Source of the DNA: Bacteroidetes bacterium 43-93 | GTDB lineage: Bacteria; Bacteroidota; Bacteroidia; Chitinophagales; Chitinophagaceae | Assembly (NCBI GenBank): GCA_001897855.1 | Contig: MKUO01000001.1 | Location: 620,001 to 684,000 of the forward strand | Reading direction: 5' to 3' | Length of the DNA: 64,000 nt | Part shown: piece after piece, positions 1 through 11,743 of the stretch | How the letters are laid out: the number at the start of each line of letters is the position of its first letter | How positions within the stretch are numbered: position 1 is the first letter of the stretch | Notes under the pieces: model-generated | Database searches by the model: none | What the model was told of the DNA's origin: nothing | What the model saw: only the letters and a program-made list of their open reading frames with translations | Made by a program: the position numbers and the translations under genes

Positions 1-1035
1 ATTGCTAAAAATAAAATACGTCCGGTAGCTTATCATGTATTACAGTCGGTAGATGTTCCAACGGATGTAAAGCAACAATTGAAGCGCGATAGGCTGTCTT
101 TGGCTATAAACTGTGCCGAGCATCAGCAAGAGCTTTTGAAACTGCTAAATGTTTTAAAGCAGCAAGGCATAGATGCTGTTCCTTACAAAGGCCTCGCATT
201 CGCTCATGCGTTTTACAAAGATCATACACTGAGGGAATTTGTTGATATTGATCTGCTGATCAACCCTTCAACTGCTCCGGATCTGCAAAAGCTTATAGAT
301 ATTATTACTCCTTTTGGTTACCTGCCCATGTATGTCCTGTCGCCTGGCATGAAAAGGGTGATTCTTGAGAATACCTGCGAGTTTTATTTTGATAAGTACG
401 TGAATGGGCAACGTAAGTTTCACGTAGAGATACAATGGCTGGCGCATCACCCGGTATTCGAGCTGCATAAAAAGCTGTCCAACCAACAGTTGTTTCAAGA
501 TCCTGCTGTGCTGAACCTCGGGAACACGGATGTTAAAGTCCTGAATACAGAGTCTCATTTTGTAACGATGCTTCTGCATCATGGGTTGCGCGAAAACTGG
601 AATTCCCTAAAATACATGCTTGACCTTGCGATGATATTGCAAAATGGCGAGCCGGATATGAAAGTTGTAACGGTCATAACCCGGGAATACAAGTTTAATA
701 AAGTACTTCTTTCCGGGTCTCAGTTACTCAATGAGCTATTGGGTGTCGGAGGCAATTTGTCGCCTGCCACGCAAACAGATCCAACTCCTTATATAGACGT
801 ATTATTATCGGGCAAAAAAAAGCAAAGAACGTCCTGGCAAAAGCAGGTATCGGTTCTTAGGAATACCGACGATATTACAGGTAAGGCAAAATTGACCTTT
901 AAGTTGGCGAAATATATGTTTCAACCTTCAGTAGAGGATATTCGCTATTACCGGCTCCCGGAAAGATGGCATTTTTTATATTTCTTTGTGAAGTTTATTC
1001 GGTTATCTTCAGAAAAGTTCAAAAGTACAAGCTGA
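1..1035 (+). CDS. Nucleotidyltransferase family protein (NTP_transf_5-like), 5' end cut by window
   Basis: The frame is open from base 1 to a TGA at 1033-1035, so the N-terminus lies outside the window; an internal TTG at 79 is not a convincing start. The visible protein has the hallmark of the uncharacterised nucleotidyltransferase family PF14907: a PYKG segment, then a short helix, an Arg, and a VDIDLLI strand whose Asp pair would bind metal. The C-terminal half is all-helical. Genes of this family recur in lasso-peptide clusters that carry an HPr-kinase-like gene; in the pseudomycoidin cluster, as I recall, one is linked to adding sugar to the phosphorylated peptide. It lies 10 bases before the APS kinase on the same strand and is probably co-transcribed with it. 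Family is seen; a role in modifying the lasso peptide is inferred. Confidence 0.75.
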   Translation: MAKNKIRPVAYHVLQSVDVPTDVKQQLKRDRLSLAINCAEHQQELLKLLNVLKQQGIDAVPYKGLAFAHAFYKDHTLREFVDIDLLINPSTAPDLQKLIDIITPFGYLPMYVLSPGMKRVILENTCEFYFDKYVNGQRKFHVEIQWLAHHPVFELHKKLSNQQLFQDPAVLNLGNTDVKVLNTESHFVTMLLHHGLRENWNSLKYMLDLAMILQNGEPDMKVVTVITREYKFNKVLLSGSQLLNELLGVGGNLSPATQTDPTPYIDVLLSGKKKQRTSWQKQVSVLRNTDDITGKAKLTFKLAKYMFQPSVEDIRYYRLPERWHFLYFFVKFIRLSSEKFKSTS

Positions 1036-1045
1036 TAGTTAGTAA

Positions 1046-1933
1046 ATGTTAGATCTGTTCATTAAAAATATCAGGAACGATTATTCGGTTCGCAGACACC
1101 TGTTAAAATCACTTACATGGCGTATTGTTGGCTCTCTAGATACAACGCTGCTTGGATGGATCGTTACCGGTAAATTAAATACAGGATTAAAGATTGGTGG
1201 CCTGGAGTTGTTTACTAAGTTCTTGTTTTATTTTTTACATGAAAGAGCCTGGCATCAGATAAAGTTAAAAGGCGAAAGCAAAGAAAAGATTGCTGAAAGG
1301 AACAGGAAGAATATAGAACCGCAGTTATTCAAACAAACGATCAAGATCAACAGGCAGCAGCGGGAAGATAAGAACGGACATAAAAGCATTACACTTTGGC
1401 TTACCGGATTATCGGCTTCCGGTAAATCATCTATCGCTACAGAACTGGATGCCTGGCTTCACAACCATGGTTATAACTCTTACGTGCTTGATGGTGATAA
1501 CACGCGTCTGGGCATCAACACCGACCTTTCCTTTTCAAAGGAAGACAGGAAAGAAAATATCCGCAGGGTAGCAGAGATATGCAAATTGTTTAATGATGCA
1601 GGCACCATAGTTATTGCAGCGTTTATCTCTCCATTTGCAGAAGACAGGCAGAATGCGCGTACTGTTATCGGTGCTGATAGTTTTGTGGAAATATTTGTTG
1701 ATGCCAATATCGATACCTGTAAGATGCGGGATAAGAAGGGCTTATACGCGCTGGCAGAACAAGGAAAGATCAAAGACTTTACAGGTATCAATAGTCCTTA
1801 CGAACGCCCTGCAACACCTGATATCCATATTAATGCAAATAACAGCACGATAAAGGAAAGTGTAGCCACCATCATCGCAGCATTAGAAAAATCGGGATCA
1901 ATAACGAGTGGGGAAGTGTCTGTAGCTTTATAG
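1046..1933 (+). CDS. cysC: DUF2061-adenylylsulfate kinase fusion (APS kinase)
   Basis: Phosphorylates adenosine 5'-phosphosulfate (APS) to PAPS, the donor used by sulfotransferases. Residues about 15-70 form a DUF2061 domain (RRHLLKSLTWR start, two hydrophobic stretches), which should anchor the enzyme to the membrane. Residues about 110-285 are a full CysC domain with Walker A GLSASGKSS at 121-129, the LDGDNTR substrate loop, a FISPF segment and the KGLYA and SPYE motifs. DUF2061-CysC fusions occur in other Bacteroidota. It follows the nucleotidyltransferase by 10 bases and its end overlaps the convergent exporter gene by 6 bases. With cysD and cysN nearby and no APS/PAPS or sulfite reductase in the window, PAPS is more likely meant for the sulfotransferase at 10339 than for sulfate assimilation. 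Confidence 0.93.
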   Translation: MLDLFIKNIRNDYSVRRHLLKSLTWRIVGSLDTTLLGWIVTGKLNTGLKIGGLELFTKFLFYFLHERAWHQIKLKGESKEKIAERNRKNIEPQLFKQTIKINRQQREDKNGHKSITLWLTGLSASGKSSIATELDAWLHNHGYNSYVLDGDNTRLGINTDLSFSKEDRKENIRRVAEICKLFNDAGTIVIAAFISPFAEDRQNARTVIGADSFVEIFVDANIDTCKMRDKKGLYALAEQGKIKDFTGINSPYERPATPDIHINANNSTIKESVATIIAALEKSGSITSGEVSVAL

Positions 1934-3703
1934 CCTTTGTGCTTCAAACATCTCGGCAAACTTACCGTTTACAGCTTTTAACTCTTCGAAGCTACCTTGC
2001 TCTATGATCGCTCCTTCATGCATCACATAGATCATATCGGCAAATTTCAGGTTGTATAATCTGTGAGATATGAGTATCAACATTTTATTGCCGAGTGTAT
2101 CTTTTATGTTTTTAAATACCTCTGCTTCTGATATCGGGTCCAAAGCGCTGGTAGGTTCATCTATCACTATCAATTGCGCATCCTTATAAAATATTCGCGA
2201 GAGCACCAGTTTCTGCCATTGTCCGCCACTTAGTTGTTCACTGCTTTCAAAATACCTTCCCAGCCTGGTTTTATACTCTTTCGACAATCGTTTAATAAAA
2301 TGGTGAGCGCCGGATAAGGTCGCGGCATTTTCTAGCCTCCCGATGTCATTTTGTTGTTCGTTACTGCCCAATTTTATATTCTCTTCTACAGTAAGAAAGT
2401 ACTTTTCAAAATCCTGGAATATAAAATTGCAGTTAGCGTTATAGGAGCTCGTAGATATTGACTGTAATTCTGCATTATCTATATATACACTTCCTGTTTG
2501 CAGCTTATACAGTCGCGCCAGCAATTTTACAAGTGTCGATTTGCCCGATCCGTTTTCACCAACAATAGCAATAATGCTACCCGGCCTGCATTCGAGGGTT
2601 ACATCTTTCAAAGCGTATTTATTGGCATCGGGATAAGTAAAGGAGACCTTATCAACAAACAAACCTTTGTTTATTTCGGGGAATGCCTGCTCAGCGGTAG
2701 ACGTAGCAACATTAGGTATATTGAGGAAGGCAAACAGATCGCGCAAAAAGATGTTTTGTTGCAGTACCTGTACTACCGATTGCAGGAAATTCCTTGATGC
2801 GCTCTGCAGTCGTTGAAATCCCTGCAGGTACACCACAAATGTTCCCAGTGTGATCGTCTTTTCCCATGCCGATCTGGCCAGTAAAATAATAAGTATCGAC
2901 ATCACGATTATTTCCGCACTTTCTGCCAGCAGACTATGCCTTGCATGTTTAGCAGCCAGCGATCGCCTTTCGCCAAAAATATATGCCCTTATTTTCCGAA
3001 ACTTCCCGATATAGAATGCACCAAAACCCAACGTCCTCACCTCCTTGGCGCTTGTTGTTGCTGTGAGCATATTATGTATATAGCCCGCCTCGCGTTCTGT
3101 CGGTGCAAGTTGTCTTTCTTGCCTCGCTATAGATTGCCCCTGGTACCATTTTACTATCGCAAGAGGTACAGACATGCAAAGGAACAGTATGGCAAAAGAT
3201 GAATGGAGCGCCACGAAGAATCCCGTCAGAAAAAGAAGGGAAGTACTGTTAAGTATTATAGAATTAAAACTGCTGAGTAATGCAGATGCTTTGTAAATAG
3301 CCTGCTGCTGCGCCAGGTGTAACGTATCATGATAAGATGGGTTTTCATAATATTCGTAATCTACTTCTATGGCTTTGTGTAATACTTTTTCCGATAAATG
3401 ATCCGTTACTTTTTGCAGATGTATCTTGCTGATGTAGCCGGAGTATTGTGCCGCCATTGCCGTTAATAGCTGTACGCCGCTAAATAGAAGTATTAAAAGC
3501 AGTGTACGGTCAAAGCTGCTGTTGCCATCCGTAACCGATTCTATCAGGGCTTTGATAAAGTACAGCGATACTACCGGCAACAATGATTGTACGATTTGCA
3601 GTACAATGTTTGTTACAGCCAGGCGTTTGTCTGTTTGCCAGGTGATAGCCCAGATACTTTCCAGGTTACTGATAAATGATGCCGTGCGCTTTTTTAGATC
3701 CAG
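1928..3703 (-). CDS. ABC exporter (fused membrane and ATPase domains), probable lasso peptide exporter
   Basis: A half-transporter with an N-terminal six-helix membrane domain and a C-terminal ATPase: Walker A GENGSGKST, signature LSGGQWQKL, Walker B LIVIDEPTSALDP and the His switch LISHRL. There is no N-terminal C39 peptidase, as expected for lasso exporters, where a separate protein (B2) removes the leader. It is third in the minus-strand unit cysD-cysN-exporter. The start is a puzzle. The first ordinary start in frame is TTG at 3583, but about 40 codons upstream read like the normal N-terminus of this family (amphipathic linker, Trp-rich, then helix 1) and there is no ATG, GTG or TTG between the stop at 3745 and 3583. 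I place the start provisionally at a CTG (3703), just after the cysN stop. Export of the peptide is inferred from context. Confidence 0.85.
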   Translation of the reverse strand: MDLKKRTASFISNLESIWAITWQTDKRLAVTNIVLQIVQSLLPVVSLYFIKALIESVTDGNSSFDRTLLLILLFSGVQLLTAMAAQYSGYISKIHLQKVTDHLSEKVLHKAIEVDYEYYENPSYHDTLHLAQQQAIYKASALLSSFNSIILNSTSLLFLTGFFVALHSSFAILFLCMSVPLAIVKWYQGQSIARQERQLAPTEREAGYIHNMLTATTSAKEVRTLGFGAFYIGKFRKIRAYIFGERRSLAAKHARHSLLAESAEIIVMSILIILLARSAWEKTITLGTFVVYLQGFQRLQSASRNFLQSVVQVLQQNIFLRDLFAFLNIPNVATSTAEQAFPEINKGLFVDKVSFTYPDANKYALKDVTLECRPGSIIAIVGENGSGKSTLVKLLARLYKLQTGSVYIDNAELQSISTSSYNANCNFIFQDFEKYFLTVEENIKLGSNEQQNDIGRLENAATLSGAHHFIKRLSKEYKTRLGRYFESSEQLSGGQWQKLVLSRIFYKDAQLIVIDEPTSALDPISEAEVFKNIKDTLGNKMLILISHRLYNLKFADMIYVMHEGAIIEQGSFEELKAVNGKFAEMFEAQRL

Positions 3704-3714
3704 GTTGTTATGTT

Positions 3715-4929
3715 TTAATAAATCATGATAGCAGCTACCGTGTTATGAGTTGCAGGGTCTATAATGATACCTCGCGCATTTTCCGGGCACACATCATAGC
3801 TATCATACACAACCGGTACTTCGGTTTCTATAATAGCGCTTGCTACTTCATTAACCTTTAAGCCGGGGACTTTTTCTTTGTCAAAGCTAAAAGGATTTAT
3901 CCGGTATTCTATATCCCTGATGTGGCAAATAGATTCTTGCGTATGAATGCGTAAAATAAATTCTTTGTTTTGCTCGCAGTTAATTTCCGGATCCAGCCAG
4001 CATATAGCTGCAGTGAGGAGTTTCGTGCATTGGGGGCGATGTGTTAAGGGGGCTAATATACTGCCACGCTTCATCCCATCATTGGTATTCAGCTCAAGGC
4101 ATATATTCTCACCGGCTTTAGCCGTTTCCACTTCTTCGTACCCCGAAATAATTTTCTTTACCAATACTTCATTTTCCGGCGGAAAAATTTTCAGAGGTTC
4201 ATTAACATGAATTTCTCCGCTGAGGACTTTCCCAAAGTAAAGACTTGTTTTGGTCGATTCGTCTTCGGCACAGTATTGTATAGATACACGTCCCGGGCCA
4301 TTTGTTGTCTTATGTGTATCACATTGCTCTAAAAAGCTCAGCAGGTCAGGGCCATGATACCAGGGCATATTTTCAGAGTGTGCAGAGACATTATCGCCGT
4401 GTAATGCGCTGATGGGAATAAATATTACATCACGCAGTTGCAGCCTTTCTGCAATAGATCGGTATTCGTTCCTGATGGATTCAAATGCATCTTCACCATA
4501 CGCCAACGCATCCATTTTGTTAACCGCTACTACCACATAACGGGTTCTAAGGAAGGATGCTACTAGGCTATGCAGTCTTGTCTGGCTGGTGATGCCATTC
4601 TTTGCATCTATCAATATGATCATTACATCTACATTCGATGCGCCGGTTACCATATTTTTCGTGTACTGAAAATGGCCCGGAGCATCAGAGATGATGTACT
4701 TTCTGTTGTTGGTTTTAAAATATCTGTACCCGATATCTATGGTAATGCCTCCCGCTCTTTCAGAACGCAGGCCGTCTGTAATATGTGCCAGGTTGATGAT
4801 ATTGCCAACTTTGCTTACAGATTCCAACACATCTTCTTTGATATTGCCTGTGTCATATAGCAGGCGTCCTGTTAATGTGCTTTTCCCGTCATCAATACTG
4901 CCTGCGGTCGTAAATCTCAATAGCTCCAT
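3715..4929 (-). CDS. cysN: Sulfate adenylyltransferase subunit 1 (GTPase)
   Basis: The regulatory GTPase of ATP sulfurylase; with CysD it couples GTP hydrolysis to APS formation from ATP and sulfate. G1 (AGSIDDGKST, residues about 9-18), the GGITIDIGYRYF switch I region, G3 DAPGH and G4 NKMD are all intact, followed by EF-Tu-like beta-barrel domains. At 404 residues it has no fused APS kinase, consistent with the separate cysC at 1046. It starts 8 bases after the cysD stop and runs into the exporter gene, which must begin at or just past its TAA. Placement inside a lasso cluster, with no reductase genes, suggests a PAPS supply for sulfation. Confidence 0.96.
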   Translation of the reverse strand: MELLRFTTAGSIDDGKSTLTGRLLYDTGNIKEDVLESVSKVGNIINLAHITDGLRSERAGGITIDIGYRYFKTNNRKYIISDAPGHFQYTKNMVTGASNVDVMIILIDAKNGITSQTRLHSLVASFLRTRYVVVAVNKMDALAYGEDAFESIRNEYRSIAERLQLRDVIFIPISALHGDNVSAHSENMPWYHGPDLLSFLEQCDTHKTTNGPGRVSIQYCAEDESTKTSLYFGKVLSGEIHVNEPLKIFPPENEVLVKKIISGYEEVETAKAGENICLELNTNDGMKRGSILAPLTHRPQCTKLLTAAICWLDPEINCEQNKEFILRIHTQESICHIRDIEYRINPFSFDKEKVPGLKVNEVASAIIETEVPVVYDSYDVCPENARGIIIDPATHNTVAAIMIY

Positions 4930-4937
4930 TGCTTCTG

Positions 4938-5831
4938 TTAAAAGTATCCCTGTAGTTTTCTGTCTTCCATTGCCGCGTCCGATAGTTGGTCGTCAATGCG
5001 CGTTTCGCCTCGTTCGCTTATGTTCGATGCTTCTATTTCTCTTATTACCTCATCAATGGTTCGGGCGTCCGATTTTATAGCAGCAGTACAGGTCATATCG
5101 CCTACGGTACGGTATCGCACATTTTCAGTCAGGCGTATATCTTCATCATCTATTTTTATGTATCCAGATACTGCTATCAACCGGCCGTTATAAACAATAC
5201 AAGAACGCTCGTGGGCAAAATAGAGCGATGGCAGGTCTATATTTTCCTGCCTTATATATTGCCACACATCCATTTCAGTCCAGTTGCTTATCGGGAATAC
5301 CCGCATATTTTCACCTTCGTTGATGCGTCCGTTATATATGTTCCAAAGCTCCGGCTTTTGATTATAGGGCTGCCATTTGCCTTCTCTATCCCTAACAGAA
5401 AAGAAACGTTCTTTTGCTCTCGCTTTTTCCTCATCCCTGCGCCCACCCCCAATACAGGCATCAAATCCAAATTCCCGGATGGCATCCATCAGTGTGATGG
5501 ATTGCAGTACATTCCTGCTGGGTAGTTTCTCTACAGGCTCTTCTATCCCATGTTCTAGGATAGAGTCTTCTACCTTTCTAATGATCAGTTGTAGCCCTTT
5601 CTGTAGCACCAGTTGATCCCGGAAGCGTAATGCTTCTTCAAAATTATGGCCCGTATCTACGTGCATTACAGGGAAGGGGATAGGCATTGGATGGAATGCT
5701 TTGGCTGCAAGGTGTATGAGCACGGTGGAATCCTTACCTCCCGAAAAAAGTAACACCGGCTTTGTAAACTGGGCAGCTATTTCCCGGAACACATAGATCG
5801 CTTCTGCCTCCAGTTCTTGTAAATAATTCAT
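4938..5831 (-). CDS. cysD: Sulfate adenylyltransferase subunit 2
   Basis: The catalytic subunit of ATP sulfurylase (ATP + sulfate to APS + PPi). It is a PP-loop enzyme with the SGGKDS pyrophosphatase motif at residues 30-35, HVDTGHNF following it, and the conserved GGGRRDEEKARAKER segment; the C-terminal region ends in the usual short basic tail. Full family length (297 residues). The ATG at 5831 is preceded by a TAnnTTTG -7 box on the minus strand at 5842-5849. It is the first gene of the minus-strand unit cysD-cysN-exporter and is divergent from the lasso precursors. Confidence 0.96.
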   Translation of the reverse strand: MNYLQELEAEAIYVFREIAAQFTKPVLLFSGGKDSTVLIHLAAKAFHPMPIPFPVMHVDTGHNFEEALRFRDQLVLQKGLQLIIRKVEDSILEHGIEEPVEKLPSRNVLQSITLMDAIREFGFDACIGGGRRDEEKARAKERFFSVRDREGKWQPYNQKPELWNIYNGRINEGENMRVFPISNWTEMDVWQYIRQENIDLPSLYFAHERSCIVYNGRLIAVSGYIKIDDEDIRLTENVRYRTVGDMTCTAAIKSDARTIDEVIREIEASNISERGETRIDDQLSDAAMEDRKLQGYF

Positions 5832-5841
5832 TGTATATTTT

Positions 5842-5869
5842 CAAAAATAGTTATTAGGTATAAATACCT
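5842..5869 (-). promoter_or_regulatory. cysD promoter -7 box with palindromic operator candidate
   Basis: On the minus strand TATTTTTG (5842-5849) matches the Bacteroidota -7 consensus TAnnTTTG. Just upstream, 5856-5869 is a perfect 14-base palindrome (AGGTAT, AA, ATACCT) that falls in the spacer between the -7 and -33 positions, where a bound repressor would block polymerase. No clear TTTG -33 box is seen (TTTAC at the right distance). It sits in the 118-base gap between cysD and the first precursor and could control both directions. Confidence 0.5.
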
Positions 5870-5912
5870 GTAAATATTTATTCACATCTATACCATCGTG
5901 TTTGTTTTTTAT

Positions 5913-5920
5913 TAATTTTG
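5913..5920 (+). promoter_or_regulatory. Promoter -7 box for the lasso precursor operon
   Basis: TAATTTTG matches TAnnTTTG and lies 29 bases before the ATG of the first precursor. A TTTG at 5901-5904 is too close (8-base spacer) to be the usual -33 element, so only the -7 half is supported. Confidence 0.45.
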
Positions 5921-5949
5921 GCTCGCTGGTATATTTTAAACATTCCATT

Positions 5950-6105
5950 ATGAATAATGCACAACGCGGCTTTGATAGCCCAAAAGAAAATAATACTCCC
6001 GAAAAGAAGGCATGGATAGCACCGGCTTTGATTGAGGAATCCGTTTCTGAAACAAAAGGGGGTGGTATTACTGCTACATTAGAGAACGGTTTTTATCATA
6101 CATAG
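5950..6105 (+). CDS. Lasso peptide precursor A1
   Basis: A 51-residue peptide from ATG 5950. The leader (residues 1-36) carries KKAWIAPALIEESV, a W-x-x-P version of the YxxP element bound by the PqqD-like protein, and ends in Thr-Lys; Thr at position -2 is the classic lasso cleavage determinant. The predicted core (37-51) is GGGITATLENGFYHT: Gly1 can form the macrolactam with Glu9, giving a nine-residue ring and a six-residue tail with Phe-Tyr-His as possible steric plugs. Tyr13 and the C-terminal Thr15 offer hydroxyls for sulfation or phosphorylation. The following genes are the standard lasso enzymes. A TTG at 5902 in the same frame would add an unrelated hydrophobic run and is rejected as the start. 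Confidence 0.9.
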   Translation: MNNAQRGFDSPKENNTPEKKAWIAPALIEESVSETKGGGITATLENGFYHT

Positions 6106-6118
6106 ATAACGATAATAT

Positions 6119-6134
6119 ATCTTATATATAAGAT
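6119..6134. promoter_or_regulatory. 16-base perfect palindrome between the two precursor genes
   Basis: ATCTTATATATAAGAT is self-complementary and lies 14 bases after the A1 stop. It may be a weak RNA hairpin that sets the A1/A2 ratio or protects the upstream mRNA, or a protein site. It has no G+C-rich stem or T-run, so it is not a typical terminator. Confidence 0.35.
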
Positions 6135-6191
6135 GTGCTATTGGGTTTGTAATGGAACAATTATAGCTCGATAACTTTTTAATTCTTACTC

Positions 6192-6347
6192 ATGGAGAAA
6201 ACAACGCAGGGCTCCGGTGGTCTAAAGTCAGCTAGCACCACCGAAAAAAAAGCATGGATAGCGCCGGCGCTAATAGAAGAATCAGTTGCTGAGACTAAAG
6301 GTGGCAGTATTACAGATATATTCGAGAACAGTTTTTATCATACATAG
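6192..6347 (+). CDS. Lasso peptide precursor A2
   Basis: A second 51-residue precursor, same length as A1 and easily missed because it is so short. Residues 18-33 are nearly identical to A1 (EKKAWIAPALIEESV), the leader again ends in Thr-Lys, and the core is GGSITDIFENSFYHT. Gly1, Gly2, Ile4, Thr5, Glu9, Asn10 and the tail Phe-Tyr-His-Thr are shared with A1; positions 3, 6, 7, 8 and 11 differ. Glu9 is the only acid in both cores at a usual ring-closing position (7-9), which supports a Gly1-Glu9 ring. The N-terminal 17 residues differ freely, as expected for a leader outside the recognition element. Confidence 0.9.
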   Translation: MEKTTQGSGGLKSASTTEKKAWIAPALIEESVAETKGGSITDIFENSFYHT

Positions 6348-6400
6348 GCAGTTCCGTTTATAGCATCCGTATTAAACAGCTGTATTTCGTATAATGCGTA

Positions 6401-8230
6401 ATGAGTAGTATAAGCGGTTTTACCGGTAGTGACGCTGATGCATTACAATTAATGCAGAATAAGCTTAGGCACTGGCAGCCGGATGTAGAAGAAATATACC
6501 TGGATGAAGATATAAGTCTTGCATCACTTGAATTATACGATACTCCCGAGTCGACATACACAAAACAGCCATTTGAATATGGTGATATGGTGGTTGTTGC
6601 AGATTGCCGTATAGACAATAGGGAAGAGTTATCAAAAAAAATGGATCTGCCGCTTAACATTGAAGCAGCAGATGTTTTTTTTATTGCCCTTGCTTATAAA
6701 AAATGGGGCAATGATTGTGTAAAGTATTTATACGGAGATCTTGCTTTCGTCATTTGGGATAAGGGGCGCAAGTCTCTTTTTGCCGCCAGGGATCATATTG
6801 GTATCAAAACGCTTTATCACACTACCATTAACGGACGGTTCGTATTCGCAAGCGAAATAAAAGGAATATTAGCCCATCCCGATTTTAAGGCTGAAATAAA
6901 TGAACGCTATATAGTCTCAAGTATCGGCGGTGTTCATGAAGCCTCAGCTGATAATACACCCTATGCCAATATTCAATTGTTACCACCTGGCCACTTCCTG
7001 GAATGGCATTCAGGAAACGTAACAATATCCCGTTATTGGGAATTTGGCAAGAATGTTCCTGCTGTTACTTGCCGCGAGGAAGAATACATACAGAAGTTCA
7101 GAGACTTGTTGTTCGAAGCAGTAAGATGTCGTTTGCGCTCGCCCCAGGGCTTGGGTGCAGAAGTGAGCGGCGGCCTGGATTCAACCTCAATTGCTGCTAT
7201 AGCAATGGAAATATTAGGGAAAGGAACGCCATTTCATTCTTTCTGCCACGGTAAAGCACAGAATAAAAAATTTGACGTTTATGGCGATGATACGTATGTG
7301 GTAAGGGATTTTTGCAATAAGTATAATATATCGGGCTATCTGCATGTAGTGAATGAAGCCAATCATTCATGGGATATTGCAGAAGATATTTTATTAAATG
7401 TGTACGACGAAGAAGATACAACGGAGGTACCATTATTAACAGGTGCTTTCCTGCCGGCTGCAAAGTCTGCAGGTGTTAGGGTGATGTTGTCTGGCCATGG
7501 CGGCGATCATGTAGCAAGCAACCTGGCAAGAGGGTTTTATATGCAAAATGCAATAGATAAAAATTATCTAAGGCTTTGGCGAAATCTTTACAGGGAGTTT
7601 GGCGCTTTGCGTAGTATTCCACGGTTAGGTTATTATACAGCTCGCGGATTAAATGGGACAGCCATCACCAAAGAAGTTTCTAAAAAAGCTTTGCAGGCTA
7701 TCCAAAATAGCGGTTTGCGTAGTGAAGTGATTGAAAAATACAATTTACTCGCAAATCCTGCTGCAATAGACCTTTTATCTGCATCATGCCTGGCAGATAA
7801 ATACGTTCGAAACATGCGTTTTAGAGCCGCCGTAAAACGTGCATATACACACGATCTGGTAAGTAAGCACTTCAATATAGAATATAGATTCCCCCTTTTA
7901 GATGTTCGGTTAATGGAATTCACGATGGCAATAGCACCGCACATTGAAAAAAAGTATGGCTCCCAAAGAGAGTTTTACAAGCTTGCCGTTAAAGATTATA
8001 TTCCCACTGCTGTTTGGGATAGCGGGAAGAGTATGGTGCCTACAACACCTTTTATTCATGCGTTCTATAAAAAAAACGAACAATCAATACGTAAACTGCG
8101 GGAATCTTTAGACTCCGGTCTCACCCGGTTTTTTGATGAGGGTAAACTTCGCAATACTACTGCTAAGCTGAATCTGAAACTAATTGTATTGAATAATGCA
8201 TATAAAAAAATAAAGCATAAACAACTGTGA
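6401..8230 (+). CDS. Lasso peptide cyclase (asparagine synthetase-like, C protein)
   Basis: A 609-residue AsnB-type protein. The N-terminal glutaminase-like half starts MSSISGF, without the Cys2 needed to hydrolyse glutamine, as is usual in lasso cyclases (McjC type). The synthetase half has the PP-loop SGGLDS at about residue 255 and the downstream SGHGGD loop. In lasso biosynthesis this enzyme adenylates the side-chain acid (here Glu9) and joins it to the freed N-terminal amine while the tail is threaded. It lies 53 bases after A2, and its TGA is one base before the ATG of the PqqD-like gene. Ordinary asparagine synthetase is ruled out by the missing Cys and the neighbours. Confidence 0.93.
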   Translation: MSSISGFTGSDADALQLMQNKLRHWQPDVEEIYLDEDISLASLELYDTPESTYTKQPFEYGDMVVVADCRIDNREELSKKMDLPLNIEAADVFFIALAYKKWGNDCVKYLYGDLAFVIWDKGRKSLFAARDHIGIKTLYHTTINGRFVFASEIKGILAHPDFKAEINERYIVSSIGGVHEASADNTPYANIQLLPPGHFLEWHSGNVTISRYWEFGKNVPAVTCREEEYIQKFRDLLFEAVRCRLRSPQGLGAEVSGGLDSTSIAAIAMEILGKGTPFHSFCHGKAQNKKFDVYGDDTYVVRDFCNKYNISGYLHVVNEANHSWDIAEDILLNVYDEEDTTEVPLLTGAFLPAAKSAGVRVMLSGHGGDHVASNLARGFYMQNAIDKNYLRLWRNLYREFGALRSIPRLGYYTARGLNGTAITKEVSKKALQAIQNSGLRSEVIEKYNLLANPAAIDLLSASCLADKYVRNMRFRAAVKRAYTHDLVSKHFNIEYRFPLLDVRLMEFTMAIAPHIEKKYGSQREFYKLAVKDYIPTAVWDSGKSMVPTTPFIHAFYKKNEQSIRKLRESLDSGLTRFFDEGKLRNTTAKLNLKLIVLNNAYKKIKHKQL

Positions 8231-8231
8231 C

Positions 8232-8504
8232 ATGGATTTGAATACACGTTTAGCAAGAGGAAGCCAATATATTTTCAACGAAGTAGATGGTGAGATAGTA
8301 ATGATGAATACTACTACAGGCACCTATGTATCCCTAAACGATACCGCGAGGAAAATTTGGACCATGTTGGAACAACCACAGCAATTATCCTCTATTCTTG
8401 AGGCTCTTGCCCTGGAGTATAATGTTACGCCTGAACAATGTGAACAGGACGTAATTCCCTTTATTGAGCAACTGCTTCATAAAGAAATTGCAATTAAGGC
8501 CTGA
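8232..8504 (+). CDS. PqqD-like lasso leader-binding protein (B1)
   Basis: A 90-residue protein of the PqqD / RiPP recognition element fold: strands around YIFNEVDGEIVMMN and GTYVSLNDTARKIW followed by three helices. The LN-x-TA-x-x-IW pattern is typical of PqqD-like proteins in lasso clusters. It binds the precursor leader (here the WxxP element) and delivers it to the B2 peptidase. It starts one base after the cyclase stop and is 20 bases before the first kinase. Confidence 0.92.
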   Translation: MDLNTRLARGSQYIFNEVDGEIVMMNTTTGTYVSLNDTARKIWTMLEQPQQLSSILEALALEYNVTPEQCEQDVIPFIEQLLHKEIAIKA

Positions 8505-8524
8505 TCTGTTACAGTGTAATTGAG

Positions 8525-9424
8525 ATGGGTTATAGGTACAGGTTGTCGGGTTATGTCTTTGAAATAGATACTCCATTGCGGGAGCTCCCGGAAGTGAATG
8601 ACGAGCCTGAATGCTTCCTTTCTGTTCGGCGGGATATATCGGAAAAGATACCTGCAGAGGCGTTATCTGCCGAATCATATTTAAACGCCGATCTGGCGCT
8701 TACCTGCATTCAAAGAGAGCAGTTCGGGTTTGTAGCAATATGGAATAATAATACTATTGAGTACACCCCCGCATCTCATCTTGATGACATGGGTATTACC
8801 ATACAATTGCTCGGCACAATAGCGATGATTATGTCAGCTACGATGGGTTACGTGAGCCTGCATGCGGCATCTGTCGTCATAGATAATAGGGCCGTTTTAT
8901 TTTGTGGTGCGTCCGGTGTCGGTAAATCAACACTTACTGCCCATTTTTATTCAAAGGGTTATCAGGTATTGTCAGACGATGTAACTACTCTTCGCATCAC
9001 CGCTCCTGGAAAAATAACTGCCTATCCCTCAGTTCCCCGTATCAAACTTTCCGATGAGTCGTTGGCTTTGATAGGAAGATCGGGGGATGGCCTTCAGGAA
9101 ATTAATTTTGAAACGCGTAAATACATATTGCCCATAACCGAAATTACCGGCAGTAATGGATACGAGTTAAGCGCAATTATTTTTCCTTTATATAAAGATG
9201 GCCACATGATATTAGAACAAATAGGAGGCTTCTCTAATAAATTATTGGTTGCAAAACACTTGTACCGAAAGAGGTTGGCAAAACTGCTATATCCCATTAC
9301 ACAAAGGCGGGAACTATTTTTGGCCCTGGCGGCTCATATCCCGATGTATCATTTTTATAGGCCCTGCAACATGGCCACAATGCAGGAAAGCCTGGATTAT
9401 ATAGAAATGCAATTAAACAGATAA
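8525..9424 (+). CDS. HPr kinase-like peptide kinase 1
   Basis: A 299-residue protein whose C-terminal half matches the HprK catalytic domain: SLHAASVVID strand, Walker A GASGVGKST at about residue 129, and the LSDDVTTL segment with the double Asp. The N-terminal half differs from the HPr kinase regulatory domain, as in kinases of lasso clusters. In paeninodin biosynthesis such a kinase phosphorylates the C-terminal Ser of the lasso precursor; here both cores end in Thr, a plausible equivalent acceptor. It is co-directional with the biosynthetic genes, 20 bases after B1 and 10 before the second kinase. The fold is clear; the substrate is inferred. Confidence 0.85.
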   Translation: MGYRYRLSGYVFEIDTPLRELPEVNDEPECFLSVRRDISEKIPAEALSAESYLNADLALTCIQREQFGFVAIWNNNTIEYTPASHLDDMGITIQLLGTIAMIMSATMGYVSLHAASVVIDNRAVLFCGASGVGKSTLTAHFYSKGYQVLSDDVTTLRITAPGKITAYPSVPRIKLSDESLALIGRSGDGLQEINFETRKYILPITEITGSNGYELSAIIFPLYKDGHMILEQIGGFSNKLLVAKHLYRKRLAKLLYPITQRRELFLALAAHIPMYHFYRPCNMATMQESLDYIEMQLNR

Positions 9425-9434
9425 TTTAACCGCT

Positions 9435-10346
9435 TTGTCTACAACAAATTTGAAATATAAATATTGCGTCGGTGGCATTACTATCGGTTCCGATATCCAT
9501 TATCCTGAATTGATTTTAGATAACAGCCATAAAGATGTTGAAGTAGTACTTGCTTACGGAGAGGTCCCGGAAACGCTTGATAATAACAGGGCAGATTTCC
9601 CGATAGTGGAAGTGAATGAAGATAACTATCTTCTTAAGATCCCGCGAGCAGGCAGGTACTGGGTGAATAAGGGAGATCGCATTACAATTCAGGCTGAAGA
9701 AGGTGCTACGTTAGAGGATGTAAGGAAGCAATCCCTTACCGCCGTGCTGGCTATGCTAGGCTACCAGCGCAATTATATTATGATGCATGGTGGTGTTGTG
9801 ATCATTAATGGCCGGGGTGTTTTAATTACAGGTATTTCTGCTATGGGTAAGTCCGCACTGCTGGCTGCGCTCTCTCAGAAAGGTTGTCGGGTAATTTCTG
9901 ATGATATCAGCTATATACAGGTGATAGATAAAGAAGTTATTGCGTTTCCTTCCTTCCCCCGGATCATGCTGTGGAAAGATAGCCTGCGAAAACTGAAGCT
10001 AAAGGCGGAAGAAGGGCAAAAGCTGAGGGCAGATATGGAAAAATATTTTTATCCTGTCAGTAACAGCGCCTTTCAGGAGCAGGTACGTATCGACACAGTT
10101 TGCGTGTTAACGAGCTCAATAGGTTGTGGTTTATTTAAAACTTTATCCGGCCTGGGAAAAACGACCCACCTGCGCGACAATCTTTTTCATCCCTGGATAC
10201 TTGGCCCTATGGGTAAGTCTGGCTACTATGCATCGAGGGTTTTGGGTATGTCAAGCCTTGTTGATGTTATGTTATTTGGCAACGATCAAACAAAAAGCAT
10301 AGAAGAACTGGCGGATTTGTTCATTGAAAACATGACCAATGCTTAA
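9435..10346 (+). CDS. HPr kinase-like peptide kinase 2
   Basis: Paralogue of the preceding gene, 303 residues from a TTG at 9435; no in-frame ATG or GTG precedes it, and a TTG at 9450 is the alternative. It keeps the key elements: MMHGGVVIINGRG strand, Walker A GISAMGKSA at about residue 131 (Ala where Ser/Thr is usual at the last place), and VISDDISYI. Its central region is diverged from kinase 1. Two kinases for two precursors could mean one per core, two sites per peptide, or sub-functionalised partners. It overlaps the sulfotransferase start by 8 bases, which suggests translational coupling. Confidence 0.82.
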   Translation: MSTTNLKYKYCVGGITIGSDIHYPELILDNSHKDVEVVLAYGEVPETLDNNRADFPIVEVNEDNYLLKIPRAGRYWVNKGDRITIQAEEGATLEDVRKQSLTAVLAMLGYQRNYIMMHGGVVIINGRGVLITGISAMGKSALLAALSQKGCRVISDDISYIQVIDKEVIAFPSFPRIMLWKDSLRKLKLKAEEGQKLRADMEKYFYPVSNSAFQEQVRIDTVCVLTSSIGCGLFKTLSGLGKTTHLRDNLFHPWILGPMGKSGYYASRVLGMSSLVDVMLFGNDQTKSIEELADLFIENMTNA

Positions 10347-11199
10347 TACCAACGCAAAGTTTATTTGGCTGGCGTCTTATCCTAAATCAGGTAATACCTG
10401 GGTCAGAATCTTTCTTTCTGCATTACTTACAGGCAAAGAACCGGATATCAATAACCTGGCGACAAACCTGATAATATCGAGCCGGCAACTCATAGATGCT
10501 ACCTTGGGCTTCAGTTCGTCAGATATTCCGGAAGACGATTATCTGTTTTACAGAACCAGGATGTATGAGGTCTATGCAAAAGCGCACAAACAGGAATATA
10601 TTCTTTGCAAAGTGCATGATGCCTGTATCTTAAAGGGAGAGGTTTTATTTACACCTGCCATTACAAGAGGCACAGTATATATATTGCGTAATCCTTTCGA
10701 TATGGTAGCATCAACTGCTAATCATCACAATGTTTCTATAGAACAAGCGCTGGATTATATCTGCAGTCCGGAACATGCCTTGGCAAATAGACGGACAAAG
10801 CTTAATAATCAAGTATCACAATATATGGGCACATGGAGCCAGCATCTGCAAAGCTGGGAAAACGTGCATCACGAAAATATGTTACTGGTAAAGTACGAGG
10901 ACCTGGTAAATGATTCCCTACAAGCCTTTTCTAAAATTGCCGCATATATTAATATACCTCATACTAAAGCGGATGTATTACAGGCTATTGAAAATGCAGC
11001 TTTTCAAAAGCTCCAAAACCAGGAGCAGAAAACCGCAATAAAAATGGCTCCGCATGTAAAAAAGTTTTTCCGTTCAGGCAAAGTAGGGGGCTGGAGAAAC
11101 GAAATAACAACCGATCAGGCCATGCGGATCATCGATTGTCATTATGACGCACTCTTAAAGCATGGTTATATAGACACGGCAGGAAATATCCTGGTGTGA
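10339..11199 (+). CDS. PAPS-dependent sulfotransferase
   Basis: A 286-residue cytosolic-type sulfotransferase (PF00685). The 5'-phosphosulfate loop YPKSGNTW lies at about residues 14-21, a KVHDA segment supplies the usual catalytic His region, the 3'-phosphate motif YILRNPFDMVAS is at about 113-124, and FFRSGKVGGWRNE near the C-terminus is the family's RKGxxGDWKN element. It transfers sulfate from PAPS to a hydroxyl. It is translationally coupled to the second kinase, and cysD, cysN and cysC in the same locus supply PAPS. The likely acceptor is the lasso peptide: Tyr13, Thr5 and Thr15 are present in both cores. A small-molecule or polysaccharide acceptor cannot be excluded. Confidence 0.9.
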   Translation: MLNTNAKFIWLASYPKSGNTWVRIFLSALLTGKEPDINNLATNLIISSRQLIDATLGFSSSDIPEDDYLFYRTRMYEVYAKAHKQEYILCKVHDACILKGEVLFTPAITRGTVYILRNPFDMVASTANHHNVSIEQALDYICSPEHALANRRTKLNNQVSQYMGTWSQHLQSWENVHHENMLLVKYEDLVNDSLQAFSKIAAYINIPHTKADVLQAIENAAFQKLQNQEQKTAIKMAPHVKKFFRSGKVGGWRNEITTDQAMRIIDCHYDALLKHGYIDTAGNILV

Positions 11200-11634
11200 T
11201 CAGCTATAGAAATTAGCAACCTGGTACTGTTTATACCCGTAAGCGCCGGTCAATACATGCTCCCCAAGCATTAACCATGCATGGGCTTTCAATTTTTGAT
11301 AGTTATTATCGTCTTTAGCGATACCCAGGTAGATGGTGGTTTGCAATCCTTTTTTCTTCAGCAACCTTTTGCAGATAATGGCTTGTGCCATACACTCGCT
11401 TTTCCAGGGCGTACCTTTGCATACTTCCTCCACTATGTCTTTTATATGCTCTGCTTGCTTCAACTGTTCATCAGTTACATCCTGAATAGCTTTTTTCTGT
11501 TGCTCGCCTAATAGCCTTCTGTAGTATTTAAACGGCAGGTAAGACATACACAACCTTATGATCAGCGACCATATAAAACAATAGGTATGTACCCATCCAT
11601 GTTTAGATCGTATTTGCGCTGAATCGCTCATCAT
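11200..11634 (-). CDS. Lasso peptide leader peptidase (B2, transglutaminase-like)
   Basis: A 144-residue protein of the lasso B2 family (Transglut_core3). The N-terminal helix region with SYLPFKYYRRLL is typical, Cys81 lies in WKSECMAQAIICKRLL and His118 in KAHAWLML, the Cys-His pair of the protease. It removes the leader after Thr-Lys. Unusually it is encoded on the opposite strand, convergent with the sulfotransferase (stop codons abut), not beside B1. Its ATG at 11634 follows within 2 bases the T-run of a terminator-like hairpin that ends the tRNA-Arg unit, so it may depend on read-through or on a promoter upstream of the tRNA. Confidence 0.88.
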   Translation of the reverse strand: MMSDSAQIRSKHGWVHTYCFIWSLIIRLCMSYLPFKYYRRLLGEQQKKAIQDVTDEQLKQAEHIKDIVEEVCKGTPWKSECMAQAIICKRLLKKKGLQTTIYLGIAKDDNNYQKLKAHAWLMLGEHVLTGAYGYKQYQVANFYS

Positions 11635-11636
11635 GT

Positions 11637-11661
11637 AAAAAAGGCATCCACATTGGATGCC
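11637..11661 (-). terminator. Terminator-like hairpin between tRNA-Arg and B2
   Basis: Perfect 8-base stem (GGCATCCA / TGGATGCC) with a 3-base loop, followed on the minus strand by six T. It directly precedes the B2 start codon, so it either ends the tRNA transcript or acts as an attenuator for B2. Confidence 0.75.
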
Positions 11662-11671
11662 CTCGTTTTTG

Positions 11672-11743
11672 TAGCCCCGACAAGAATCGAACTTGTATCT
11701 AAAGTTTAGGAAACTTCTATTCTATCCATTGAACTACAGGGCC
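11672..11743 (-). tRNA. tRNA-Arg (anticodon CCT)
   Basis: On the minus strand a full cloverleaf can be drawn: acceptor stem GGCCCTG with CGGGGCT, D-arm TTCAATGGATAGAA, anticodon loop TTCCTAA (CCT, reads AGG), and T-arm with GTTCGAT. CCA is not encoded. The lasso cluster ends at this tRNA, a common landing site for mobile DNA, but no integrase or repeated attachment site was seen within the window. Confidence 0.93.

Follow-up and report, generated by a model that had tools for sequence, protein, structure and literature searches.

The first part of the window, by which we mean the whole stretch of 64,000 nucleotides analysed, raises the question of what a lasso-peptide cluster would do with a sulfotransferase (ST) and with the genes that make PAPS for it. 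The cluster spans positions 1-11634, as delimited by ORF reading together with Pfam and NCBIfam scans (Table 1). These analyses confirm the inventory given in an earlier note on this DNA, which listed two precursors, a cyclase (C), the proteins B1 and B2, an exporter, a sulfotransferase and cysD, cysN and cysC. The lasso core of the locus is ordinary; its self-contained sulfation kit is unusual.

Table 1. Features of the lasso cluster and the adjoining tRNA gene, with window coordinates and the evidence for each assignment.
Feature	Position	Strand	Evidence
NTP_transf_5 (PF14907) protein, 5' end before window	<1-1035	+	Pfam 110.1 bits
DUF2061-APS kinase (CysC) fusion	1046-1933	+	PF01583 209.7 bits, PF09834 69.4 bits
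ABC exporter	1928-3583	-	PF00005 104.2 bits
CysN, sulfate adenylyltransferase large subunit	3715-4929	-	TIGR02034 379.4 bits, above cut-off
CysD, sulfate adenylyltransferase small subunit	4938-5831	-	TIGR02039 405.3 bits, above cut-off
Lasso precursor A1, core GGGITATLENGFYHT	5950-6105	+	ORF; leader end KKAWIAPALIEESVSETK, Thr at -2
Lasso precursor A2, core GGSITDIFENSFYHT	6192-6347	+	ORF
Lasso cyclase C, Asn synthetase-like	6401-8230	+	PF00733 102.7 bits
PqqD-like leader-binding protein B1	8232-8504	+	PF05402 69.4 bits
HPr-kinase-like protein K1	8525-9424	+	PF07475 25 bits, below gathering cut-off 33.3
HPr-kinase-like protein K2	9435-10346	+	PF07475 38.4 bits, above cut-off
PAPS-type sulfotransferase ST	10339-11199	+	PF00685 95.6 bits
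Leader peptidase B2 (Transglut_core3)	11200-11634	-	NF033537 67.4 bits, cut-off 33; PF13471 70.1 bits
tRNA gene adjoining cluster	11672-11743	-	sequence

Both precursors carry the lasso hallmarks of Thr at -2, Gly1 and Glu9, and the C, B1 and B2 genes are all present, with B2 alone exceeding its NCBIfam cut-off. The top NCBIfam match of the cyclase is NF033535 (306.3 bits, below the cut-off of 525), and the best match of B1 is the lasso model NF033536 (66.9 bits, below the cut-off of 80). The genes are arranged as NTP_transf_5 and DUF2061-CysC (forward), CysD, CysN and the ABC exporter (reverse, with the exporter nearest to CysC), A1, A2, C, B1, K1, K2 and ST (forward), and B2 (reverse). The stop codon of K2 overlaps the ATG of ST by 8 nt (ATGCTTAA, 10339-10346), so the coupling of the sulfotransferase to a kinase gene proposed earlier stands; the operon itself is more restricted. 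A single transcript is possible only for A1-A2-C-B1-K1-K2-ST, because cysD, cysN and the exporter gene are encoded on the other strand, cysC belongs to a separate unit behind NTP_transf_5, and B2 is convergent. A sigma-70 scan returned fewer sites than in shuffled sequence and was set aside. Judged by eye, the ORFs upstream of the cluster look like genes for haem synthesis, for a TonB receptor and for enzymes of unrelated function, and the tRNA gene downstream is followed by a probable histidine kinase.

The sister locus L027 has identical gene content and order, with an ST that is 90% identical, on a contig that starts within NTP_transf_5. Comparison of the two loci gave dN/dS values (NG86) of 0.077 for ST, 0.056 for CysC and 0.062 for CysD, and these three genes are under purifying selection. 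Since L027 repeats the order and dN/dS is low, the assembly of genes is not a product of chance. The L027 cluster is also flanked by a tRNA of the same sequence as that of the window. Insertion of an island into the flanking tRNA was considered and rejected, as neither the cluster nor the 3 kb before it contains a 12-base repeat from the tRNA gene.

The earlier description of ST as PAPS-dependent is borne out insofar as its family, motifs and predicted fold point to an enzyme of the PAPS type. The motifs PKSGNTW, KxH, RNPxD...S and FFRxG, which we take to be PAPS-binding and catalytic, are invariant in six aligned sequences, and K-S-G-N-T-W, K91, H93, R117, P119, S125, FF and G247 are invariant in 38 aligned STs. 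When the AF2 model of ST (pLDDT 91.8, pTM 0.91) was compared with the PDB by fold (Foldseek), the top match was Teg12 in its structure with teicoplanin aglycone, at 23% identity (E 1.9e-13, TM 0.64, rmsd 5.4). The sequence-profile ranking of solved structures likewise placed Teg12 (E 5.5e-24) and Teg14 first and StaL lower; behind Teg12 in the solved-structure matches come human SULTs and StaL. The glycopeptide sulfotransferases Teg12, Teg14 and StaL, all among the nearest solved structures, tailor peptide antibiotics, their substrates being nonribosomal glycopeptides, and Teg12 and Teg14 act on aryl hydroxyls of these antibiotics. PF00685 enzymes have diverse acceptors, and the fold offers no choice among them, because alcohol- and phenol-sulfating enzymes are both found among the matches.

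Profile searches of the host genome, which for sulfotransferases covered the PF00685 family only, returned one PF00685 gene (ST), one CysD and one APS kinase (the DUF2061-CysC fusion), and a profile search for the NIR_SIR sulfite reductase domain found none. ST is thus the one visible user of PAPS in this genome, which upholds the suggestion that cysD, cysN and cysC would supply it. In other bacteria CysD, CysN and CysC feed sulfate assimilation, and ordinary assimilation genes could have come to lie here by coincidence; given the missing NIR_SIR domain, we consider this very improbable. PF01507 was matched twice in the host genome, by CysD and by a 437-aa protein encoded near cysteine desulfurase-like and SMC-like proteins (L006, G000:C7, about 380160-383695), in what looks like a dnd DNA phosphorothioation locus; this second gene therefore also argues against assimilation. 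The L006 row reads as a cysteine desulfurase, the PAPS-reductase-like 437-aa protein and an SMC-like ATPase. Two sampled congeneric genomes gave no ST match (E <= 1e-10) and no APS kinase match (E <= 1e-20).

The same question can be asked of other ST loci. Among the matches listed, CysC/CysD/CysN were present in 14 of 87 ST loci, compared with 2 of 39 B2 loci without ST. For instance, L044 has CysC-CysD-CysN-B1-B2-K-ST as a contiguous series, K being the HPr-kinase-like protein, and in L025 CysD, CysN, CysC, K and ST all point in the same direction. At the genome level, 42 hand-picked ST genomes were searched, including all those with local PAPS genes. An APS kinase scored above the cut-off in 41 of them, the exception being G1250 (L062). 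In the window's order 238 of 392 genomes had one at a stricter threshold (E <= 1e-20), an unmatched comparison given that the 42 genomes are spread over many phyla. The 13 genomes whose PAPS genes adjoin ST (14 loci, as L045 and L061 share one genome) had no second APS kinase above the cut-off elsewhere; among the other 29, an APS kinase outside the stretch examined was found in 28. Kinases were assigned to the ST locus by coordinates or, in G1257 and G1261, where contig numbers differ, by position. NIR_SIR was present in 13 of these 29 genomes; it was also present in four of the 13 with local PAPS genes, which would suit an assimilatory role, but absent from the remaining nine, which, like the lack of a second APS kinase in the 13, speaks against that role.

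The Desulfosporosinus MAG contig JARLHV010000004.1 carries two consecutive lasso-type clusters (L045 and L061); K, ST and NTP_transf_5 are present in both, and both have an APS kinase of their own. CysC is the sole local PAPS gene in both, a supply that may fit a sulfate reducer because such an organism already makes APS. CysC ORFs of a length near that of the window's DUF2061 membrane-domain fusion occur in the ST loci L020 and L027. In L139 and L142, which by group code belong to the same genus, an APS kinase gene lies less than 10 kb from B2, and no ST was detected.

The wider family was collected by a profile search of genome contigs with a six-ST alignment, from which the best 80 of 578 confirmed relatives were kept, and by matches from the window's order, class and phylum; the set is therefore a non-random sample. 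L039, L067 and L070 were left out of the counts as duplicates, L147 was also dropped from the core analysis, L026 was excluded from the latter, and the K, ST, C, B1 and B2 profiles were built from the first loci. By record titles and partly by our own sorting, STs occur in Bacteroidota, Desulfobacterota-type groups, Pseudomonadota, Chloroflexota, Bacillota, Petrachloros (a cyanobacterium), Acidobacteriota, Riflebacteria, Verrucomicrobia, Gemmatimonadetes, Scalindua (a planctomycete), Armatimonadetes, Actinomycetes and Wallbacteria. At least one of C, B1 and B2 was matched in 77 of 87 ST loci and B2 in 58 (among the matches listed), a single C or B1 match being weak because the profiles pick up Asn synthetases and PqqD proteins in general. 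Within the window's order, 12 of 396 genomes had ST matches (E <= 1e-10), seven of them strong, the host genome included. K lies directly before ST in all seven and also for the divergent match in G162; four weaker matches are ORFs of 688-705 aa with no match to the K profile.

K is the regular partner of ST: it lies immediately upstream of 79 of 93 ST ORFs in 87 loci, among the matches listed. Seven of the 14 exceptions are in loci without lasso genes (four in L106, two in L097 and one in L103). The others are two fragments of one split ST (L094), two STs at contig ends (L059 and L099), the common frame of L066, a weak second match in L077, and the ST of L063, where B1 is matched, K is absent and the neighbour upstream of ST reads as DapF. 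By our own profiles, K and ST share one frame in three loci: K 21-305 and ST 352-629 in a 653-aa frame of L066 (8951-10909), ST 7-285 and K 307-598 in a 600-aa frame of L077 (9995-11794), and a partial K 170-348 and ST 444-720 in a 724-aa frame of L089 (8675-10846). Pfam found PF00685 in all three frames and Hpr_kinase_C below gathering in L066 and L089, with no such match in L077. As all three are MAG contigs and L089 has an additional K stretch in another frame, the evidence for fusion rests mainly on L066 and L077. Fusions occur in both orders, which suggests that K and ST cooperate.

In the window, both kinases retain an intact P-loop and Asp pair (GASGVGKS and DD in K1, GISAMGKS and DD in K2), and the idea of K2 as a dead partner was rejected. 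Of 76 coupled kinases examined, 68 have the P-loop pattern; seven of the eight misses keep GKS, L101 being the one that does not, and the acidic pair is changed in some of the 76.

These observations bear on whether the acceptor is a peptide at all. ST could serve a lipid or polysaccharide and lie in the cluster by chance, a reading that draws on the many acceptors of PF00685 enzymes, the role of ST here being read from sequence. Some STs also lack K or lasso genes (L063, L097, L103 and L106), and beyond the C-terminal Ser/Thr, which K already explains, no hydroxyl is common to most ST clusters. Nevertheless, K-ST pairs, some of them fused, recur in lasso-type loci of many phyla, and the search of its own genome found no PF00685 gene besides ST, so that we regard a non-peptide acceptor as improbable.

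To compare acceptor sites, precursors were called by one pattern, which found 68 cores in 46 of 92 ST loci (among the matches listed) and 17 cores in 16 of 56 B2 loci without ST; the latter all come from the window's phylum, the former from many phyla. Codon-shuffled loci yielded 3.2 cores per ST set and 3.9 per ST-less set, which suggests about three spurious cores among the 68 and about four among the 17, and makes the ST-less controls weak. All fractions of the 46 given below refer to the matches listed.

Both window cores end in Thr15 rather than Ser, and both have Tyr13, that is, Tyr at ring acid +4. The earlier note named Tyr13 as the likeliest site, and ST might indeed sulfate its phenol independently of the kinase, a reading to which we give a little less than an even chance. 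In the ST tree (45 rows, L106 removed as spurious), the window, L027, L030 and L148 form one set with an SH-aLRT of 100, and Tyr +4 is kept in all four loci although the cores differ: in both cores of the window and of L027, and in at least one core each of L030 and L148, which also have one core each without Tyr. Over the 46 ST loci, Tyr +4 occurs in 13, compared with a mean of 5.2 expected from tail shuffles, and none of 10000 shuffles reached 13; mapped on the ST tree, the label needs 9 changes, compared with 11.6 when shuffled (9 or fewer in 19 of 500 shuffles). Teg12 and Teg14 as the nearest solved relatives would also suit a phenol. Even so, Tyr +4 was found in 3 of 16 ST-less loci as well (Fisher p 0.53), two of the three with near-identical peptides, and it may be a plug residue. 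Tyr occurs in any core of 26 of 46 ST loci and of 4 of 16 ST-less loci, which leaves 20 ST loci with no core Tyr (the probably spurious L106 among them); L090 lacks it, next to L047 and L075 with closely related STs. A Tyr13 site would also leave the coupling and fusions with K unexplained. Tyr as the universal acceptor is thus ruled out by the 20 loci without it, and an irrelevant Tyr by its enrichment at +4.

Alternatively, ST may act on the C-terminal residue or on a group built there, with K adding phosphate, the NTP_transf_5 protein a hexose and ST then sulfate. We consider this possible but tentative. A C-terminal Ser/Thr is found in 39 of 46 ST loci, compared with 8 of the 16 loci without ST (Fisher p 0.014, kinship uncorrected), and K-ST coupling and fusions point the same way, yet K alone would account for such an ending. 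NTP_transf_5 is present in the window, and a passage in PMC8498205 describes a hexose attached to the phosphate of pseudomycoidin. However, this gene shows no clear enrichment with ST (33 of the 51 ST loci flanked by 6 kb on each side, among the matches listed, versus 22 of 39 ST-less loci), and being about equally common without ST, it does not support a sulfated sugar as the rule. From the peptide sequences, Tyr13 is a fair guess for this locus and the C-terminal Thr a general one, both plausible and not settled; another Ser/Thr as the sulfate site appears quite improbable.

Overall, the product of the cluster is probably a sulfated lasso peptide. The original prediction of such a peptide holds in that ST lies in the cluster as the sole visible user of the PAPS predicted to be made there, while its choice of Tyr13 is not settled. 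The cluster likely installs sulfate, and probably phosphate, on its predicted product; K2 and ST most likely attach both groups to the precursor in its C-terminal tail. CysD and CysN would convert sulfate and ATP to APS, and DUF2061-CysC would convert APS to PAPS. ST, as a unit with K2, would transfer the sulfuryl group from PAPS onto one of the hydroxyls of the A1 or A2 precursor's C-terminal tail, and K2 would phosphorylate Thr15, by analogy with the paeninodin kinase. B1 and B2 would then remove the leader, C would close the Gly1-Glu9 ring, and the ABC protein would export the mature peptide. The gene content, the K2-ST overlap, the motifs and the single visible use of PAPS are read from the sequence; that the peptide is the acceptor, where it is modified and in which order the steps run we infer.

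A bolder version of the K2-ST reading, which we think unlikely, is that K and ST together act as a bifunctional kinase-sulfotransferase and build a composite acidic C-terminal cap, with phosphate on the terminal Ser/Thr and sulfate there or beside it. A phospho-sulfate anhydride would be possible in such a cap because related kinases extend phosphate chains. If true, sulfo-phospho lasso peptides with this cap would be a class not yet described but widespread over many phyla, and the cluster would have taken up PAPS genes where the host is otherwise without them.

Parts of this locus have known counterparts. The lasso kinase described in a passage of PMC8498205 phosphorylates the C-terminal Ser of the linear precursor. 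The paeninodin cluster and the proteobacterial ThcoK and SyanK clusters share with the window an HPr-kinase homologue and a core ending in a hydroxy residue; the window differs from the paeninodin type, whose kinase substrate ends in Ser, in its two kinase-like proteins, one of them ST-coupled, its PAPS supply and its C-terminal Thr. The pseudomycoidin cluster has a kinase and a nucleotidyltransferase gene in common with the window, which adds ST and CysDNC, and the likeness to PsmN is one of PF14907 membership only. By 2014 at the latest, a passage in PMC4289311 had pointed out that some lasso clusters contain an HPr kinase and a sulfotransferase, and according to PMC8498205, Zhu et al. 2016 noted a putative sulfotransferase gene in a lasso cluster. 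These clusters thus share a putative ST gene with the window, although the survey passages concerned mention no K-ST coupling, fusion or PAPS supply, of which the window has the coupling and the supply. No sulfated lasso peptide was found in the open-access literature (subscription papers and preprints lay outside the search), in agreement with the earlier remark that sulfotransferases had been seen near lasso clusters, no characterised sulfated lasso peptide being known to its author. What is new here is the order, overlap and common frames of K and ST, the complementary supply of PAPS, and the comparison of Tyr +4 with C-terminal Ser/Thr.

These findings identify genomes in which ST is the only visible use of PAPS, and the K-ST unit together with the PAPS pattern makes the earlier sulfotransferase hint testable. 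A sulfated lasso peptide would bring new charge chemistry to the lasso class.
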